In this document: positions 28,658-34,783 of the stretch, piece by piece
Numbering within the stretch: the first letter of the stretch is position 1
How the letters are laid out: each line of letters starts with the position of its first letter
Source of the DNA: Gemmatimonadales bacterium
GTDB taxonomy: Bacteria; Gemmatimonadota; Gemmatimonadetes; Gemmatimonadales; GWC2-71-9
Length of the DNA: 64,000 nucleotides
NCBI GenBank assembly: GCA_036500345.1
Contig: DASYCE010000025.1
Span: 1 to 64,000 of the forward strand
Direction of reading: 5' to 3'
Made by a program: the position numbers and the translations under genes
Notes under the pieces: generated by a model
The model's input: only the letters and a program-made list of their open reading frames with translations
Database searches by the model: none
Told to the model about the DNA's origin: nothing

Positions 28658-29350
28658 ATGCTTTACCCCACATCTGTCTATCGTTTTCGCCGGGGAGGGC
28701 CGGTCCTGCCTCTCCTGGCGATTCTCCTCGCAATCGTTCTTCTCCCCCGGTCCGCGCGGGCCCAATGGCGGATCGACGCGTGGCTCGGCGACGCGTGGAG
28801 TGCGCCGACGAATGTGACCTTCATGCAGGCTTCGGAGCCGGATATCAGCGCGACGGGCCACTGGTCGACCCGTCCGTTCGATCCGACCTGGTACTATGGC
28901 GGCAGGATCTCGAGCTGGAAGGGAAATAGCGGCTGGGGATTCGAGTACCTCCACCACAAGATCTACATGGACAACCCGCCGCCGGGGGTGGAGTTCTTCC
29001 GGGTCACCAACGGGGTCAATCTCTTCCTGCCGGAGCGGCTTTGGCGGCGGCACGGCTGGGAATTCAACGTCGGTGCGGGGCCGGTCATGGTGGTGCCGGT
29101 GAGCAAGGTCAGGGGGCTGGAATACGACAACGCCAACGGCATCTTCGACTCACGCTACGAGTTCGGAGGCGGAGCGATTGCGGCGGGGATTTCGCGGCGA
29201 TTGCGGCTGCTCCCATTCACGTTTGGTGAGGTATCGATCCAGGGGAGCGCGGCGTACGTGCGCGGGCGGATCGTGGACGGGCACGCGACCACCATGAATT
29301 ACGCTCTGCACATTCAGTACGGGCTTTCGTTACAGACCAAGCCCCGGTAG
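28658..29350 (+). CDS. Hypothetical exported protein, outer-membrane beta-barrel-like
   Basis: 230 residues, no family recognised. Signal peptide (RFRRGGPVLPLLAILLAIVLLPRSARAQ) followed by alternating hydrophobic/polar strands rich in Gly, Tyr and Trp (WYYGGRISSW, GWGFEYLHHKIYM, WEFNVGAGPVMVVPVS), ending in a strand-like YALHIQYGLSLQ. This pattern suggests a small barrel. It ends only 34 bp before the mobile-element junction, and the promoter of argG would lie directly behind its stop. Confidence 0.5.
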   Translation: MLYPTSVYRFRRGGPVLPLLAILLAIVLLPRSARAQWRIDAWLGDAWSAPTNVTFMQASEPDISATGHWSTRPFDPTWYYGGRISSWKGNSGWGFEYLHHKIYMDNPPPGVEFFRVTNGVNLFLPERLWRRHGWEFNVGAGPVMVVPVSKVRGLEYDNANGIFDSRYEFGGGAIAAGISRRLRLLPFTFGEVSIQGSAAYVRGRIVDGHATTMNYALHIQYGLSLQTKPR

Positions 29351-29353
29351 GGC

Positions 29354-29384
29354 TTGCATCGTGGGCCGGCGCTTGCATATTCAT
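29354..29384 (+). promoter_or_regulatory. Stranded native argG promoter and left half of the ArgR box
   Basis: TTGCAT (29354-29359), a 16-base spacer and CATATT (29376-29381) form a plausible promoter reading towards argG. The left ArgR half-site TTGCAT lies at 29373-29378. In the reconstructed uninterrupted site the argG ATG would follow 8 bases after the -10 box, giving a leaderless or near-leaderless message. The insertion now points this promoter into the element. Inference from sequence. Confidence 0.5.
29377..29384. repeat. Target-site duplication, left copy (ATATTCAT)
   Basis: The 8 bases ATATTCAT directly precede the left terminal repeat and recur exactly at 34771-34778 after the right terminal repeat. 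As I recall, IS1595-family insertions usually make 8-bp duplications. Confidence 0.85.
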
Positions 29385-29409
29385 CGGGAGTATGTACCTA
29401 GCGCACAAG
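29385..29409 (+). repeat. Left terminal inverted repeat of the transposon
   Basis: CGGGAGTATGTACCT, two variable bases (AG), then CGCACAAG. It matches the complement of 34746-34770 at 23 of 25 positions. Confidence 0.85.
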
Positions 29410-29450
29410 CCCTGAATCGCCGGGCGCGCCGGGAAACTGCATAGAGTATG

Positions 29451-29481
29451 CAAAACGGGCCGGGGAGTTTTCCCGGCCCGT
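29451..29481 (-). terminator. Intrinsic terminator of the transposase transcript
   Basis: On the minus strand, ACGGGCCGGG pairs with CCCGGCCCGT around a 7-base loop and is followed by TTTTG. It lies directly after the stop of the small gene at 29488. A separate palindrome, TGCATA-GAG-TATGCA, lies just beyond at 29438-29452. Confidence 0.72.
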
Positions 29482-29487
29482 CGTGGT

Positions 29488-29880
29488 TTAGCGGATTACG
29501 CTCATGGCTTGGGAGACTGAGATTCGCGGCTTGTGAGGCCAATCGGTAGTGATTGCCGAAATCGGTATGGCGTCGCCGCTGAAGTTTTCGGCCTCGCGAG
29601 TTGTCAGGCGAGAAATCAATTCACGCGCCCGGCGATTGTGTCGCGCTTTTTCCCACGGAATCGTGGCAATCACAGCGAGTAGTCCGAACGGATACCGGCT
29701 CACGGCCTGAGAAAAATACTGGCACGCGACAAAGCCGATTACAGTCGCGGTGACGCCAAACGCGCCCCTCCATTGGTCTGCTTCCGATTCGGCAAGCTGC
29801 CGGAGTTCTTCAACTCGGTTGGGCACTAAGAAGCCGCTGACCCAACGAACGCTCTTGCTTCCAACGCGCTCTAACGGCAT
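29488..29880 (-). CDS. Hypothetical protein downstream of the transposase
   Basis: 130 residues, no family recognised. A central hydrophobic stretch (GVTATVIGFVACQYFSQAVSRYPFGLLAVIATIPW, quoted as two likely membrane segments at residues about 43-57 and 64-75) suggests membrane insertion. The rest is polar. GGAGGGA precedes the ATG. It follows the transposase by 32 bp on the same strand and is closed by a terminator, so it is probably co-transcribed and part of the element. Confidence 0.5.
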   Translation of the reverse strand: MPLERVGSKSVRWVSGFLVPNRVEELRQLAESEADQWRGAFGVTATVIGFVACQYFSQAVSRYPFGLLAVIATIPWEKARHNRRARELISRLTTREAENFSGDAIPISAITTDWPHKPRISVSQAMSVIR

Positions 29881-29912
29881 CGAATTCCCTCCGGCCTAAG
29901 AGACGGAGCAGA

Positions 29913-30920
29913 TCATAGCGCCGCGCTGCTCCGGTTGTCGAGCTTCTTCCCAACTGCTCCTTTGATCGCTGCCAGTGTCCGCTCCCCGTCTTCCATCTTC
30001 CGGGTATTGTGCTTGAACGCCACTTCCGCGACGTAACGGTGCAGGTGGCGCGGGCTGACCGCGTGGTGCGTCCCGTACATCTGGCGCTTCAACCGCGAGA
30101 AGAAGGACTCCACGCTGTTGCTGTGCGCGTCACCCCGGGCGTACTCATGCGAGGAATGGTTCACCGTTTCGTGGTTGGCGAATGGTGACCCGACCTTGGT
30201 GTAGAGCGGGCTTTCGTCCGTCATCAAGGTGGAACCCAGGTCGACGTTTTCGACCAGCATTGTCTTGATGTTGGCGGCGGTCACCACCGGCATGACCGAG
30301 GCCCGGACTTCGCCGTCCCGCTGCACCACCGCCACCACCGGGACTTTGCTCTTGCCGGTGCGGCGCGGGAGGCGCTTGGCGCCCTTCGCGTAGGCTTCGA
30401 TCCGGGCGGCACGCTTCTCGGCCCGGCTCATCTGGCGCGGCGACCCGCCCACATACGTCTCGTCGGCTTCCACGACCCCGGACAGCTTCGCCTGTGGGCC
30501 GTAATCCGGCGTCATGGCGAACCGAATCCGGTGCATGAGGAACAGGGCCGACTTGTAGCTGAGGCCGGTCTGGCGGCGAATCTGGAGCGCCGAGACGCCC
30601 TTCTTCGACGCACAGGCCGCCCAGAAGGCGTAGCACCAATGGCGAAGGGGAATCTTGCTGTCCCCGAAGATCGACCCGATCCGGACGGTGAACTGCTTCT
30701 TACAGGCCGTGCAGCGCCACAGATAGCGCGGTCCGCGCTGGCCGTCCTTGCCAACGATCTGCCGGGCTTCGTTCACCGTCCCACAGTGCGGGCAAACCGG
30801 CTCCCCACCCCACCGCTGCTCTTCGATGAACGCCACCGCGGCGTCTTCGTCGGCACAGGCCAGTGGAAGGGAGGCAACCAGCGGGCTCTTGTCGTTGGCG
30901 ATCTTCGGCGCGTTTGTCAT
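29913..30920 (-). CDS. IS1595 family transposase
   Basis: 335 residues. An N-terminal zinc ribbon (CPHCG...CTACKKQF) with an RWGGEPVCPHC lead-in is followed by a helix-turn-helix region and a DDE-type catalytic core: GVVEADETYVGG (first Asp), LMTDESPLY (second Asp) and the NSVESFFSRLKRQMYGTHH segment, which takes the place of the final acidic residue. This arrangement is characteristic of IS1595 elements. A strong promoter lies immediately upstream; the message appears leaderless. Confidence 0.92.
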   Translation of the reverse strand: MTNAPKIANDKSPLVASLPLACADEDAAVAFIEEQRWGGEPVCPHCGTVNEARQIVGKDGQRGPRYLWRCTACKKQFTVRIGSIFGDSKIPLRHWCYAFWAACASKKGVSALQIRRQTGLSYKSALFLMHRIRFAMTPDYGPQAKLSGVVEADETYVGGSPRQMSRAEKRAARIEAYAKGAKRLPRRTGKSKVPVVAVVQRDGEVRASVMPVVTAANIKTMLVENVDLGSTLMTDESPLYTKVGSPFANHETVNHSSHEYARGDAHSNSVESFFSRLKRQMYGTHHAVSPRHLHRYVAEVAFKHNTRKMEDGERTLAAIKGAVGKKLDNRSSAAL

Positions 30921-30925
30921 ATATT

Positions 30926-30954
30926 ATAATACATAACGCATAAGCAAGAGTCAA
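30926..30954 (-). promoter_or_regulatory. Promoter of the transposase gene
   Basis: On the minus strand TTGACT (30949-30954), a 17-base spacer and TATTAT (30926-30931), close to sigma-70 consensus. The ATG begins 5 bases after the -10 box, so transcription should start at or near the start codon: a leaderless mRNA. Confidence 0.75.
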
Positions 30955-31013
30955 GCGCCGTTCCACTGGGCAACGTCTGTGGAACTTCCGCTCATGTTAT
31001 TCGTTATTGTTGC

Positions 31014-31036
31014 GATAATGGTAGCACCGTGCTACC
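31014..31036 (+). promoter_or_regulatory. Operator palindrome and -10 box of the toxin-antitoxin operon
   Basis: GGTAGCA-CCG-TGCTACC (31020-31036) is a perfect inverted repeat. GATAAT (31014-31019) just before it is a likely -10 box. It lies 10 bp before the toxin ATG. MqsA-type antitoxins bind palindromes at their own promoter, so this is the expected operator. Confidence 0.65.
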
Positions 31037-31046
31037 GTTCCGCGGC

Positions 31047-31364
31047 ATGGGGGACGGATGGAAGGATCCGAATCACCCGTTGGCGAGGGTGAAGGAACTG
31101 GCACGCGCCGGGCGAATCGACCCGACCGGGCGAGCAACCATCGACGCGCTCATGATGAAGATGGATACGGAGGACATGCAGGAATGCTTGGAGAAGCTAT
31201 GCGAGGCCGACTACTACATCACCAAGGATTCCGAGGAAAAGCCGGGACTGATACAGCACTATTATCGCTGCTGCTTTCGGGGAAAGTGGTTGCTGGTCAA
31301 GTTGCGCGTCAACGACCAGGCGCGTGTTGAGCTCATTTCATTCCACAAAGGGAAGCCACGGTGA
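31047..31364 (+). CDS. MqsR-like toxin (putative mRNA interferase)
   Basis: 105 residues from ATG 31047; the GTG at 31029 lies inside the operator and is unlikely. The N-terminus HPLARVKELARAGRID parallels MqsR (LSQVKKLVNAGQV), followed by LEKLCEADYYITKD and a strand-rich end KLRVNDQARVELISFHKG, like the MqsR end with its ISF motif. MqsR is a RelE-fold ribonuclease that cleaves mRNA. The order toxin, then antitoxin, with a 4-bp overlap is the MqsRA arrangement. Divergent from the E. coli protein, so activity needs testing. Confidence 0.72.
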   Translation: MGDGWKDPNHPLARVKELARAGRIDPTGRATIDALMMKMDTEDMQECLEKLCEADYYITKDSEEKPGLIQHYYRCCFRGKWLLVKLRVNDQARVELISFHKGKPR

Positions 31365-31960
31365 ACGATCAGAATGACGTCACAGCATGCCCAGAGTGCG
31401 GCAAGCCTGTTCGACGCATTCGGGGGTCGCGTGCGATCGCAATCGGTCGTCGAACGGTGAACGTTGACGGCGAATACAGGTATTGCGATGCGTGCGGGGA
31501 AACGGTGTACACGCTGGAGGAAGCGACTGAGCTACAGCGACAGGTCGCCACGCAGATCCGGGAACAGCTTGGTTTGCTGATGCCGGAAGCCATCACCGAA
31601 ATCCGCGAGGATCTCGGGCTATCGAAGGCTGCGTTCGAACGACTGCTGGGAGTTGGTCCTAAGACGGTGACACGGTGGGAACGCGGAACCGTCTTTCAGA
31701 ACCGAGCGACCGACACCTTGCTGCGGTTAATCGCAAATGTGCCGGGGACTGCTGAGTTCCTCGCAGCGTTGCATGGCGTAAAGCTGCCGCAGAAGGCGCA
31801 CAATCAGATGTCGTTCCAGCGGACGTTCGGGCCGTCGATGTACTTCGACGGTGCGGCCGCGTACGCCGGTGTAGCGATGGCAACGGGGCCGAGTCGCACG
31901 ATCCACGATACCGGACCGCCGGAACGAGGGAGGCCCCCATCCTCCGCCGTCTGGAGCTAG
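31361..31960 (+). CDS. MqsA-like antitoxin with C-terminal extension
   Basis: 199 residues. An N-terminal YgiT/MqsA zinc finger (CPECG...CDACG, residues about 9-45) and a HTH-3 domain (about 70-120: IREDLGLSKAAFERLLGVGPKTVTRWERG) are followed by about 65 further residues (HNQMSFQRTFGPSMYFDGAAAY...) that E. coli MqsA lacks. In toxin-antitoxin-chaperone systems such an extension is the chaperone-addiction region recognised by a SecB-like protein, and the next gene encodes one. GTG start overlaps the toxin stop (GTGA). Confidence 0.82.
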   Translation: MNDQNDVTACPECGKPVRRIRGSRAIAIGRRTVNVDGEYRYCDACGETVYTLEEATELQRQVATQIREQLGLLMPEAITEIREDLGLSKAAFERLLGVGPKTVTRWERGTVFQNRATDTLLRLIANVPGTAEFLAALHGVKLPQKAHNQMSFQRTFGPSMYFDGAAAYAGVAMATGPSRTIHDTGPPERGRPPSSAVWS

Positions 31961-31976
31961 ACACAGGATATGACCA

Positions 31977-32510
31977 ATGACTGAACCGACAATCGCACAG
32001 AGTGGCTACGTCCTCAACCGCGTCTATTTCCCGCATCTTCGATTTGAAGGTGTGTCGAATCCCGATGAGATCAAGCAAGGCCCCAGCACGCCCATTGGCC
32101 TCACTTGGAATTGGCGTATCATCGGCGACCGGGCATTTGAGGTCATGGTCAACGTGAAGACAGAGCCGATCACGGCGAGACCGGAGCGTGTCGACGTTCT
32201 CGCGATCGGTCGCTTTGAACTACAGGGGCCGCCTCCCGGCCTCGCTCTCCCGCGTTTTGTTCGGGTGGGCGCCGTGTCGCTCATCTACCCGTATGCACGC
32301 GAGGCAATTACAAACCTGACCGCGCGAGGTGCGTTCGGTCCGTTGTTCCTCGATCCCGTCAACCTGACGACGCTCGACAATTTTGATATGTCGCTCACGA
32401 TCGCCGCTCAGCAATTGCGAGAGAATCCCGCGCTAGGCGCGGCATTTGGCGATGTGCGTGCACTGACCGCCCCGCCCTCGCAACAGCTTCCTCTCCCGGA
32501 GGCACAGTGA
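31977..32510 (+). CDS. SecB-like chaperone of the toxin-antitoxin module
   Basis: 177 residues. It resembles SecB along its length: YVLNRVYFPHLRFEGVSNP at the first strand, IGRFEL in the middle and LIYPYAREAITNLTARGAFGPLFLDPVNL, which matches the SecB [28 protein letters not shown] block. It is placed 16 bp after the MqsA-like gene. Solitary SecB-like proteins of this kind protect and fold an aggregation-prone antitoxin. It is unlikely to be the housekeeping export chaperone, given its location on a transposon. Confidence 0.85.
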   Translation: MTEPTIAQSGYVLNRVYFPHLRFEGVSNPDEIKQGPSTPIGLTWNWRIIGDRAFEVMVNVKTEPITARPERVDVLAIGRFELQGPPPGLALPRFVRVGAVSLIYPYAREAITNLTARGAFGPLFLDPVNLTTLDNFDMSLTIAAQQLRENPALGAAFGDVRALTAPPSQQLPLPEAQ

Positions 32511-32550
32511 GGATCGGCAATACGCGACCGCCTCGATCTAGCGTATCAAA

Positions 32551-32633
32551 GCGCTCGTGGCGGAATGGTAGACGCGGCGGCATTGGGGGCTGCTAGTGAG
32601 TAAACTGTGCGGGTTCGAATCCCGCCGAGCGCA
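32551..32633 (+). tRNA. Class II (leucine-like) tRNA with UGG anticodon
   Basis: Full cloverleaf: acceptor GCGCTCG/CGAGCGC, D arm GCG/CGC with GAATGGTAGA loop, anticodon stem GCGGC/GCTGC (one G-U), loop ATTGGGG giving anticodon UGG, a 15-base variable arm with an AGT/ACT stem, T arm GCGGG-TTCGAAT-CCCGC, discriminator A, CCA not encoded. The long variable arm, D arm and A73 are leucine-type, but UGG reads proline codons. G1-C72 is not the proline-type C1-G72. Lies inside the transposon. Confidence 0.8.
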
Positions 32634-32659
32634 TTTTGTCTAAGGCTTGAGGATTACGT

Positions 32660-32812
32660 ATGGCGTCGAAGAAGGCAAAGAAGGCGACTTCCAATAAACG
32701 CGGCCCAAAGCCAGAGCGATTGAAGCTCGATGGTGATTGGGAAGACGCTGTCAAGAAAGCGGCAGCGAGGAAACCCGTTGCGGAGGCGACTTTGAAGCAA
32801 CGACCCCGTTAG
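32660..32812 (+). CDS. Small basic protein (50 residues)
   Basis: 50 residues, strongly basic start (MASKKAKKATSNKRGPKPERLK) then LDGDWEDAVKKAAARK. It resembles the many short lysine-rich proteins with a GPKPERLKLDGDWEDAV core found near mobile genes; function unknown. TTGAGGA lies upstream of the ATG. It starts 27 bp after the tRNA and overlaps the end of the convergent OLD-type gene by 4 bp. Confidence 0.65.
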   Translation: MASKKAKKATSNKRGPKPERLKLDGDWEDAVKKAAARKPVAEATLKQRPR

Positions 32813-34398
32813 GCACCTACCTCCGCGGAAAACAACGGCAGAAGCTGCGCTGCGGTGCCGATCGTTTGCGAACTCTCCCCGCGAACAATCGACCTTTTCG
32901 TCTCTCGGGCGGCAGGCAGACGCCACCGCTGGCCGCGCAAAGCGTCGGCTACTGACTCGCGAATTTCGGTGAGCGTTTCGTCGGCTACACACCGCTTCAC
33001 CCATTCGCTGCACATCAGGTTCCAAAGCATTTCGGTGCCAACGCTGAGTCGCGACGCGGCCGAACCTACCCAATCATGATGGTTCGTGAGGGTCATTGCA
33101 CCTCGACATGCGTCAATCACGTCCGACAGCGCGCGCCCAACACGAACGTCTAAGCCAGCCCAGTTCAATTCGGCCAAGGCTTTGAACACGACGGGCTCAG
33201 GAGCGTCGTCGCCAGGTAGCACGTGGCACCCATACGCGCCGCCCTGATCTCCGTCCAGAAACACTCGCGTGGGCCGAGGAAACTTGTTTTCCCCCACCAT
33301 GAGTCCAAGTGTAGTGCAAACCGATGCCGCACCTGCCGGTATCACCTGACATTGGCGCGCCATGTCAGAATCAGCAGCTGTCAGTAGTTCCGTCAACATG
33401 ATCTTCGCGCGCATATCTTCGACAAATAGGTCGCATTCGTAATGCGGCACGTCATCCATGCTACTCATCGCGTATTCCGGACTAACTCCATAGATGATCC
33501 GCCGGGCGCCCGGTTGCGGAAGGACGAACACCCGAGCTTCTGGAGGCAGTTCGTCCAAGATCGTCGCGGAATGGGTGGTCAAGATTACCTGAAGATCGCG
33601 CTCCCGGCACATTCGAGCTATTTCGCCGATCAGCCGCCGCTGGACTTTAGGGTGCAGCGACGTCTCGATCTCGTCGATCACGAGCAATCCTGTCGGCGGT
33701 ACATCGGCCTGAAGCAACTCAAAGACCGTCGTCTCACCAGACCCTTGATGAAAGCTGGAAAATTGAGCGTGGTCCCATTGAAGCACGGGCACCGGTCGCC
33801 GATCGTCAAAGTTGGTCACCGAAGCCCGAGCGCCTTCGTACGCACGGCCCATTACCTGACTGTAGCGAGCGAGCCGCTTCTGGTCGAACGGTGATGCCCC
33901 TACCTCAGTGTGCTCCGACTTCGCCAATCGGGAGAATCCGGGTCGACCTGAGACGGGCGTTACGCGCGAGAGGTCGTAGTATTCGACGTGTCGCTCAGGG
34001 CGCTCGCGGTTTCCGCGCCAACGATCACTCGGGCGGTTAATTCGTCCCGGCCGCTCTGTGTTGCCATCGCGGACCTGAAATCGGATCTCGGCGAGCCTGA
34101 TCCGCTCCCAGGCGGTGTCGGGGAAGAAATCTGACGCGTATCTCCCACTGGTTGTCTCGCGATCTGTCGGGGCATAAACCGCAGCGGCGCACTGCAAGAT
34201 CGTGCTCTTGCCGACCCCGTTCTCGCCGACGATTGCCGTAATTGGATAATTGAACTCGATCCGCTCCCGATGCCAGCCCCGGATGCCATCAATCTCGATC
34301 CACCGAAGGCGTTTCGGCCATCCGCTGCCAGTACCCCATCGCCCGCCGAGGCGGCGCATTTCATCATTCAAAGGCAACTTGGCCCCCAAGGTGGTCAA
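32809..34398 (-). CDS. OLD-family ATPase with TOPRIM-like domain (candidate defence nuclease)
   Basis: 529 residues. An SMC/ABC-like ATPase with Walker A GENGVGKST (about 58-66), signature FHQGSGETTVFE, Walker B LLVIDEIETSLHP and the His-switch ILTTHSATIL, then a C-terminal TOPRIM-like part (LFVEDMRAK and FLDGDQGG supply the acidic residues). This matches class 1 OLD proteins, several of which defend against phages. No GajB-type helicase gene follows. It is read towards the small basic gene and probably starts from a promoter in the right arm of the element. Confidence 0.82.
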   Translation of the reverse strand: MTTLGAKLPLNDEMRRLGGRWGTGSGWPKRLRWIEIDGIRGWHRERIEFNYPITAIVGENGVGKSTILQCAAAVYAPTDRETTSGRYASDFFPDTAWERIRLAEIRFQVRDGNTERPGRINRPSDRWRGNRERPERHVEYYDLSRVTPVSGRPGFSRLAKSEHTEVGASPFDQKRLARYSQVMGRAYEGARASVTNFDDRRPVPVLQWDHAQFSSFHQGSGETTVFELLQADVPPTGLLVIDEIETSLHPKVQRRLIGEIARMCRERDLQVILTTHSATILDELPPEARVFVLPQPGARRIIYGVSPEYAMSSMDDVPHYECDLFVEDMRAKIMLTELLTAADSDMARQCQVIPAGAASVCTTLGLMVGENKFPRPTRVFLDGDQGGAYGCHVLPGDDAPEPVVFKALAELNWAGLDVRVGRALSDVIDACRGAMTLTNHHDWVGSAASRLSVGTEMLWNLMCSEWVKRCVADETLTEIRESVADALRGQRWRLPAARETKRSIVRGESSQTIGTAAQLLPLFSAEVGA

Positions 34399-34631
34399 CT
34401 ACCGCAAAAACGCGGCTCCATAGGTGCATAGCGCCGCTAATATAGTCCGATAAACGCAACTAATGTTGCCCTATCCAACAAAAGCCGGTCTTTCTACGGT
34501 GCGTCAAGTTCCGAATTTCATTATGAACTGATGCCAAGTTGGGTAGAGGTAAGGCGTTGCGCCGTATCCATTGTGCCCGGGCGCCGCCGGTGGAAACGAA
34601 GCGATCGGCCGATCGATTGGAGCATGAATAT

Positions 34632-34655
34632 CGGGAGTAGGGACATGGCGCACAG
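34632..34655 (+). repeat. Third, degenerate copy of the transposon terminal repeat
   Basis: CGGGAGTA identical, then four scattered differences before GCGCACA; about 19 of 25 positions match the left repeat. It is preceded by GCATGAATAT, the complement of the ATATTCATGC found outside the right end. Confidence 0.7.
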
Positions 34656-34721
34656 CGAAGCCGTTTTCGGCAAGTATGCAGCGCCACCGTTTTATGCAGA
34701 AATTCGACTAGACTTCCGGGC

Positions 34722-34748
34722 ACGAAAAAGGGGCCGGAAGGCCCCCTT
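34722..34748 (-). terminator. Hairpin with T-run on the minus strand near the right end
   Basis: GGGGCC and GGCCCC with a 4-base loop; on the minus strand TTTTTCG follows. It would stop transcripts entering the element from the arginine operon side. On the plus strand it lies just ahead of the outward promoter candidate. Confidence 0.55.
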
Positions 34749-34770
34749 GTGCGGCAGGTACATACTCCCG
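34746..34770 (-). repeat. Right terminal inverted repeat of the transposon
   Basis: Read on the minus strand: CGGGAGTATGTACCT, GC, CGCACAAG. 23 of 25 positions match the left repeat at 29385-29409. Confidence 0.85.
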
Positions 34771-34775
34771 ATATT
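34747..34775 (+). promoter_or_regulatory. Candidate hybrid promoter for argG at the transposon junction
   Basis: TTGTGC (34747-34752, inside the terminal repeat), a 17-base spacer and GATATT (34770-34775, spanning the junction). The argG ATG starts 8 bases after the -10 box. The -35 belongs to the element and the -10 mostly to the target, the classic way an insertion supplies a new promoter. Both boxes are only moderate matches to consensus. Confidence 0.45.
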
Positions 34776-34778
34776 CAT
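34771..34778. repeat. Target-site duplication, right copy (ATATTCAT)
   Basis: Exact copy of 29377-29384. It is followed by GCAATATG, so that the joined site would read TTGCATATTCATGCAA directly before argG. Confidence 0.85.
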
Positions 34779-34783
34779 GCAAT

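Follow-up and report, generated by a model that had tools for sequence, protein, structure and literature searches.

A leucine-bodied tRNA with a proline anticodon in an IS1595-family transposon of a Gemmatimonadales bacterium

Bacterial tRNAs of hybrid identity are already known. The allo-tRNAs (Mukai et al., 2017), as portrayed in a review (PMC7609411), combine a long variable arm and an anticodon-blind serine identity with many non-cognate anticodons, of which UAU, GCG and GUC are the commonest in the 8/4 type; their hosts are Acidobacteria, Proteobacteria and Clostridia, and a link to transposons is suspected. In Streptomyces and Kitasatospora, the tRNA-ProX genes join a proline body to alanine, asparagine or threonine anticodons, and they mistranslate when tested and are accompanied by a second prolyl-tRNA synthetase, ProRSx (PMC11415595). 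Phages display tRNA-dependent lysogeny, in which a phage tRNA of normal isotype replaces a disrupted host tRNA, and a further proposal regards phage tRNA genes as a countermeasure to defences that degrade tRNA (PMC10865867).

The present work deals with a tRNA gene in a stretch of 64,000 nucleotides from a Gemmatimonadales bacterium (the window), which combines a leucine body with the anticodon UGG and lies within a transposon of the IS1595 family. Elements of this family feature an ISXO2-like transposase, terminal inverted repeats and target duplications, usually of 8 bases, and offer room for passenger genes.

The tRNA gene and the transposon around it

ARAGORN detected a single tRNA gene in the window (32551-32633, plus strand, anticodon TGG), which matched the Rfam tRNA family with 48.6 bits (E 2.4e-7) and has no encoded CCA. 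In the structure parse, the acceptor (7/7), anticodon (5/5) and T (5/5) stems are complete, the anticodon loop reads ATTGGGG, and the body shows the A14/A15 D arm, the long variable arm and the A73 of class II leucine tRNAs together with G1-C72. Covariance models built from 13 canonical leucine tRNAs, including those of the host, and from nine proline tRNAs gave 83.1 bits for leucine (host leucine tRNAs: 88-91) and 29.2 bits for proline (host proline tRNAs: 93-96). As the anticodon is UGG and none of the leucine anticodons NAG, UAA and CAA, the gene is not classed as an ordinary tRNA-Leu; it is no tRNA-Pro either, given its low score in the proline model and its class II body with G1-C72, unlike the C1-G72 of the host proline tRNAs. 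The initial annotation had already described a complete class II fold with A73, G1-C72 and UGG, that is, a leucine-type body with a proline anticodon, and the programs and both models agree with it; a covariance model placing the gene as tRNA-Pro, which it had named as the contrary outcome, did not result. A73 and the body suggest that the tRNA would be charged by leucyl-tRNA synthetase (LeuRS).

Among the 48 tRNAs of the host genome, which comprises 3.3 Mb and is 96% complete, are leucine tRNAs of all five species (GAG, CAA, TAG, TAA, CAG) and normal class I proline tRNAs with TGG, GGG and CGG; one LeuRS of the bacterial type is encoded. Since the complete leucine and the normal proline species are retained, the gene is an extra one. 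It differs from every leucine tRNA found at about one quarter of its bases, and the search for a near parent in the host and 60 relatives yielded at best 73-77% identity, so that ancestry from a host leucine tRNA was rejected. Two origins that had been considered initially are thereby affected. As acceptor, anticodon and T stem are all intact despite this divergence, a decaying recent copy is not supported, and a single A35-to-G change in a UAG leucine tRNA is too simple an explanation where the host and 60 relatives offer no near parent; it is likewise disfavoured by relatives in other transposons, which carry UGG on very divergent leucine bodies, mostly with A37.

The main fact about this tRNA, which the initial annotation had missed, is the transposon in which it resides (Table 1). 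Its exact ends are CGGGAGTATGTACCT... at 29385 and, at 34770, the complement of this sequence, with ATATTCAT flanking both sides. A DDE transposase with zinc ribbon, terminal inverted repeats and an 8-bp target duplication characterize the element as a member of the IS1595 family. It was inserted upstream of argG (34784), between that gene and one at 28658-29350; the flanking genes are syntenic with those of congeners, and the 5.4 kb in the window compare with about 48 bp in congener G009. As the inverted repeats and the perfect duplication enclose the tRNA, it is cargo of the transposon, and the anatomy together with the linkage in related elements leaves hardly any doubt that it is a passenger integral to a lineage of IS1595-family transposons.

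Table 1. Features of the transposon and its surroundings (positions refer to the window)
Feature	Position	Strand	Evidence
Left target-site duplication ATATTCAT, 8 bp	29377..29384		exact match to 34771-34778
Whole IS1595-family transposon, 5,386 bp	29385..34770		terminal inverted repeats and perfect 8-bp duplication; absent from same site in congener G009
Left terminal inverted repeat CGGGAGTATGTACCTAGCGCACAAG	29385..29409	+	inverted-repeat search, end finder
ORF, 130 aa, very weak DUF6232 resemblance	29488..29880	-	Pfam E 0.069, below cut-off
IS1595-family transposase	29913..30920	-	PF12762 E 2.9e-39, PF12760 E 5.2e-12
MqsR-like toxin	31029..31364	+	PF15723 E 3.6e-8
MqsA-like antitoxin	31361..31960	+	PF15731 E 2e-12; TIGR03830 E 8.7e-27
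SecB-like chaperone, third gene of toxin-antitoxin-chaperone set	31977..32510	+	PF02556 E 3.2e-13
Class II tRNA, leucine body, anticodon UGG	32551..32633	+	ARAGORN, Rfam, Leu/Pro covariance models
Anticodon TGG, positions 34-36	32584..32586	+	ARAGORN (anticodon at position 34)
ORF, 50 aa, without family	32660..32812	+	no Pfam, PADLOC or NCBIfam match
AAA/ABC-type ATPase, best PADLOC model HEC-04	32809..34398	-	PADLOC HEC-04 E 1e-42; PF13304 E 1.4e-21
Extra inner copy of terminal repeat	34622..34654		repeats D1 and I2
Right terminal inverted repeat	34746..34770	-	inverted-repeat search, end finder
Right target-site duplication ATATTCAT	34771..34778		exact match to 29377-29384

The cargo further includes a toxin-antitoxin-chaperone set of the MqsR-MqsA-SecB kind (31029-32510). 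The tRNA starts 40 bp behind the SecB-like gene on the same strand, and a search of the interval between the two gave no promoter-like site; this fits a co-transcription of both genes, but is no proof of it. The additional terminal-repeat copy lies some 120 bp inwards of the right end and was perhaps left behind by a nested or one-ended event. Besides, the gap upstream of argG (29351-34783) is an insertion hotspot, where the congeners G004, G006 and G007 have other DNA, 1.6 to 3.7 kb in length.

Related elements and the codon usage of their transposases

A first search, covering 288 genomes of the order, a sample of a species-genome collection and viral contigs, looked for leucine D arms followed by a non-leucine anticodon. 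Such combinations occurred in 45 of the 288 genomes, mostly with complete cloverleaves according to ARAGORN, CGC and GCG being the commonest odd anticodons. Leucine-bodied tRNAs with TGG, TGC, TCC, TTA or CTA were also encountered in the collection sample and the viral contigs, where many pattern matches from the genome collection had been discarded because they resemble intron-split tRNA-Leu(UAA) genes. An IS1595 transposase adjoins most odd tRNAs of the collection and viral contigs (Acidobacteria, Proteobacteria, Gemmatimonadota and viral contigs), but almost none of those from the order.

The latter (L065-L107, L112-L114) are mostly stand-alone chromosomal leucine-bodied tRNAs with CGC, GCG, GTC, GTG and other non-leucine anticodons. 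Some of them are conserved across genera with compensated stems, and they make up a second class of chimeric tRNAs, distinct from the transposon-borne one; a neighbour family shared by the CGC, GCG, GTC and GTG genes was looked for and not found. Azospirillum cavernae features two tandem leucine-bodied tRNAs with the alanine anticodon UGC (L145:4043-4379); this 8-kb locus gave no match to IS1595.

A second search started from the transposases alone, which removed the selection for tRNAs. Of the transposases in 395 Gemmatimonadota genomes, the nine that match the window transposase best were located in G000, G009, G069, G082, G235, G448, G247, G276 and G248, and seven of these nine closest elements carry a leucine-bodied UGG tRNA within about 3.3 kb. 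In the element of G009, the anticodon loop is irregular and TGG was read by eye. Thirteen more distant elements of the phylum contributed one UGG tRNA (G416) and one serine-bodied CAG tRNA (G008), and none of eight plasmid IS1595 loci had an odd tRNA. Viral loci found by their transposase carry UGG tRNAs (L331, L332, L336, L337, L339, L342, L345, L410) or, in L338, an AGG tRNA. Altogether, 15 elements of 1.2 to 5.4 kb are delimited by terminal repeats and perfect 8-bp duplications that enclose both transposase and odd tRNA. In several phyla, a leucine-bodied tRNA thus recurs among the related transposons, nearly always with UGG; relatives on other elements, for which the initial annotation had proposed a search, are present in IS1595 elements of several phyla and of viral contigs.

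The element tRNAs have kept leucine body and anticodon, while the remainder diverged to a mean identity of 63%; UGG sits on very divergent leucine bodies with intact stems and mostly A37. All of them score higher as leucine than as proline tRNAs, e.g., 80 vs 33, 77 vs 27 and 75 vs 29 bits, and the serine-bodied one fits both models poorly. The same IS1595 setting also occurs with UGC, UCC, UUA, CUA or serine-bodied CAG tRNAs, and some close elements have no odd tRNA (L389, L334, L340). Co-divergence of tRNA and transposase was considered and not seen (Mantel r 0.10, p 0.25). A link to the toxin-antitoxin set was rejected as well: a further 54 genomes of the order have MqsA homologues, 29 scanned homologue loci had no leucine-bodied odd tRNA, and the loci of the other elements with a tRNA yielded no relative of the MqsR-MqsA-SecB-like set.

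Several elements contain two odd tRNAs each (L191:7463-7657, L332:7003-8356, L388:8209-8453), for example UGG with CUA, or UGG with a serine-like body bearing CGC. Leucine-bodied, ochre-reading UUA tRNAs belong to the IS1595 elements L155:3347-5308 and L222:2973-6062, the former with an additional class I tRNA with UGC, and the serine-bodied tRNA of G008 with its leucine anticodon CAG to L395:6841-9066.

The linked transposases differ in their proline codons. The expected codon counts, with CCA taken from the A-ending codons in other four-fold boxes, were compared for 19 GC-matched transposases of UGG elements and 77 IS1595 transposases of tRNA-less elements. In the former, CCA makes up 69 of 230 proline codons against 23.8 expected (2.9 times), and CCU occurs three times against 29.9 expected (a tenth); the latter show neither bias (CCA 72 vs 66.9, CCU 130 vs 140.7). 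The two sets differ (Mann-Whitney U 2e-8; Fisher for CCU 8e-11), with a CCA excess in 19 of the 19 UGG elements tested first. The window transposase itself has three CCA and no CCU among 16 proline codons, and within the Gemmatimonadota CCA accounts for 31 of 109 in these transposases as opposed to 2 of 145 in distant tRNA-less elements. The MqsR, MqsA, SecB-like and ATPase genes of the window are unbiased (CCA 5, CCU 12 of 67). The CCA excess recurs in six close relatives that have no tRNA (19 of 59) and may thus mark the clade and not the tRNA. CCU alone separates these relatives (9 of 59) from the UGG elements (3 of 230, p 5e-5); within the Gemmatimonadota alone no separation was found (p 0.4), CCU being scarce there regardless. 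Two single cases lean the same way, namely the UGC element L138 (GCA in 10 of 22 alanine codons) and the AGG element L338 (CCU 4, CCA 0 of 9). From this codon usage, the tRNA probably decodes CCA in the transposase mRNA.

Amino acid and possible roles of the tRNA

Bacterial LeuRS is indifferent to the anticodon. This trait, the leucine body, A73 and the avoidance of CCU form the basis of a leucine reading, as a tRNA that merely supplied proline would leave the CCU avoidance unexplained. Moreover, CCA is rarer at the columns in which tRNA-less relatives conserve proline (7% vs 18%, permutation p 0.035), which would be odd for a codon meaning proline. Leucine was not significantly enriched at the CCA columns of tRNA-less relatives (p 0.22). 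Leucine at proline codons, as initially suggested, is still the best reading; the CCA and CCU usage of the linked transposases, which favours an effect on these two codons, speaks for it indirectly, and we give leucine as the delivered amino acid an even chance.

Three further candidates for direct signs of recoding were rejected. A clean exchange of CCA for leucine at a C-terminal column was strong against 23 sequences and weaker against 83, where proline occurs as well. In the UUA elements L155 and L222, the stop codon TAA of the transposase occupies exactly the CCA column of the UGG elements, at which many tRNA-less transposases have leucine; suppression of an in-frame stop is a hint only, as the downstream frame in L155 overlaps another apparent small frame and natural ends nearby are common. 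Likewise, serine at CTG in G008 (L395) was dismissed, for the five CTG codons are too few and lie at variable columns, being neither serine columns nor conserved leucine columns.

The overall best explanation, to which we assign somewhat less than an even chance, is an element tRNA charged by LeuRS that inserts leucine at some CCA codons and thus exerts a private missense control of transposition. The tRNA would be transcribed, probably together with the MqsR-MqsA-SecB genes 40 bp upstream, and matured by RNase P and the CCA-adding enzyme. The host LeuRS, blind to the anticodon, would load it with leucine, and the charged tRNA would decode CCA, and other CCN codons less well, in competition with the host tRNA-Pro(UGG). 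A share of the protein made from CCA-rich mRNA would in consequence carry leucine. As the transposase mRNA would be the chief CCA-rich message, composition or yield of the transposase would be tied to presence and dose of the element, and its activity would depend on the element's own tRNA. That the purpose of the tRNA is transposase control is a possibility held with reserve. A more far-reaching version appears unlikely: a transposon lineage with a private code, in which CCA wholly or partly means leucine, sister elements have their own codon-tRNA pairs (GCA with UGC, CCU with AGG, possibly UAA with UUA) and a functional transposase would arise only with the own tRNA.

A role outside translation is rather unlikely. 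The tRNA might aid the element itself or the toxin-antitoxin and ATPase genes on it, e.g., as bait for a tRNA-cleaving defence, the anticodon being a nuclease target only. The adjoining MqsR-MqsA-SecB set and defence-like ATPase fit such a decoy, as do the phage tRNAs proposed to act against tRNA-degrading defences (PMC10865867). Nevertheless, relatives possess the tRNA without the MqsA system, MqsA homologues occur elsewhere without an odd tRNA, the codon bias resides in the transposase, and a decoy would not need a leucine body.

Chance retention of a functionless tRNA captured by the transposon, a selfish hitch-hiker, would agree with the uncorrelated tRNA and transposase distances and with the close elements that have no tRNA; it is improbable in view of the retention of UGG on very divergent bodies with intact stems, the repeated independent presence and the codon signature of the transposases. 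Quite improbable, too, is a tRNA charged with proline despite its leucine body, which merely speeds the translation of CCA. G35 and G36 of the anticodon, the CCA excess in the linked transposases and the position of CCA mostly at variable sites, where proline may be acceptable, are in line with it, but the host already has a tRNA-Pro(UGG), G1-C72 and the class II arm stand against the C1-G72 of the host proline tRNAs, and the proline model gives just 29 bits; neither the CCU avoidance nor the same setting with UGC, UCC, UUA, CUA and serine-bodied CAG tRNAs would be explained. A deliberately miscoding tRNA, harmful in some condition and held in check by the toxin-antitoxin genes, is very improbable, since other tRNA-bearing element loci have no relative of that set, even though a leucine tRNA with a proline anticodon would be expected to miscode and the gene lies directly behind the set.

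If the preferred explanation of a tRNA that recodes its own transposase holds, the mobile element would give a codon a meaning of its own, and missense tRNAs would have a natural path by which to spread between phyla. As the odd tRNAs belong to one definable mobile element, whose ends, associated enzyme and measurable codon signature are at hand, their function is directly testable.

Comparison with known systems

The window element shares transposase, terminal inverted repeats and 8-bp duplication with IS1595 transposons that carry passenger genes. A literature search, beyond whose scope many subscription journals lay, found no report of a tRNA as passenger of IS1595 elements, and we know of no IS1595 link of tRNA-ProX. 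Like the phages of tRNA-dependent lysogeny, the element is mobile and has a tRNA bound up with its own life cycle; it differs from them in the chimeric isotype of this tRNA and in leaving the tRNAs of the host undisrupted (PMC10865867).

With tRNA-ProX, the tRNA has in common that the body of one amino acid is joined to the anticodon of another. The direction is opposite, the body here being that of leucine and not of proline, which places the gene outside this kind, and unlike tRNA-ProX with its ProRSx, the host has one bacterial LeuRS and the identified genes of the element include no synthetase. With the allo-tRNAs, the tRNA shares the long variable arm and a non-cognate anticodon. It lacks the 8/4 or 9/3 arrangement of acceptor and T stems in their 12-bp acceptor branch, and also their serine identity, having 7/5 stems and a leucine body, and unlike them this kind of tRNA is shown inside delimited IS1595 elements. 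Allo-tRNAs and tRNA-ProX are the nearest kinds; by the features tested the window tRNA belongs to neither, but it may work like them.
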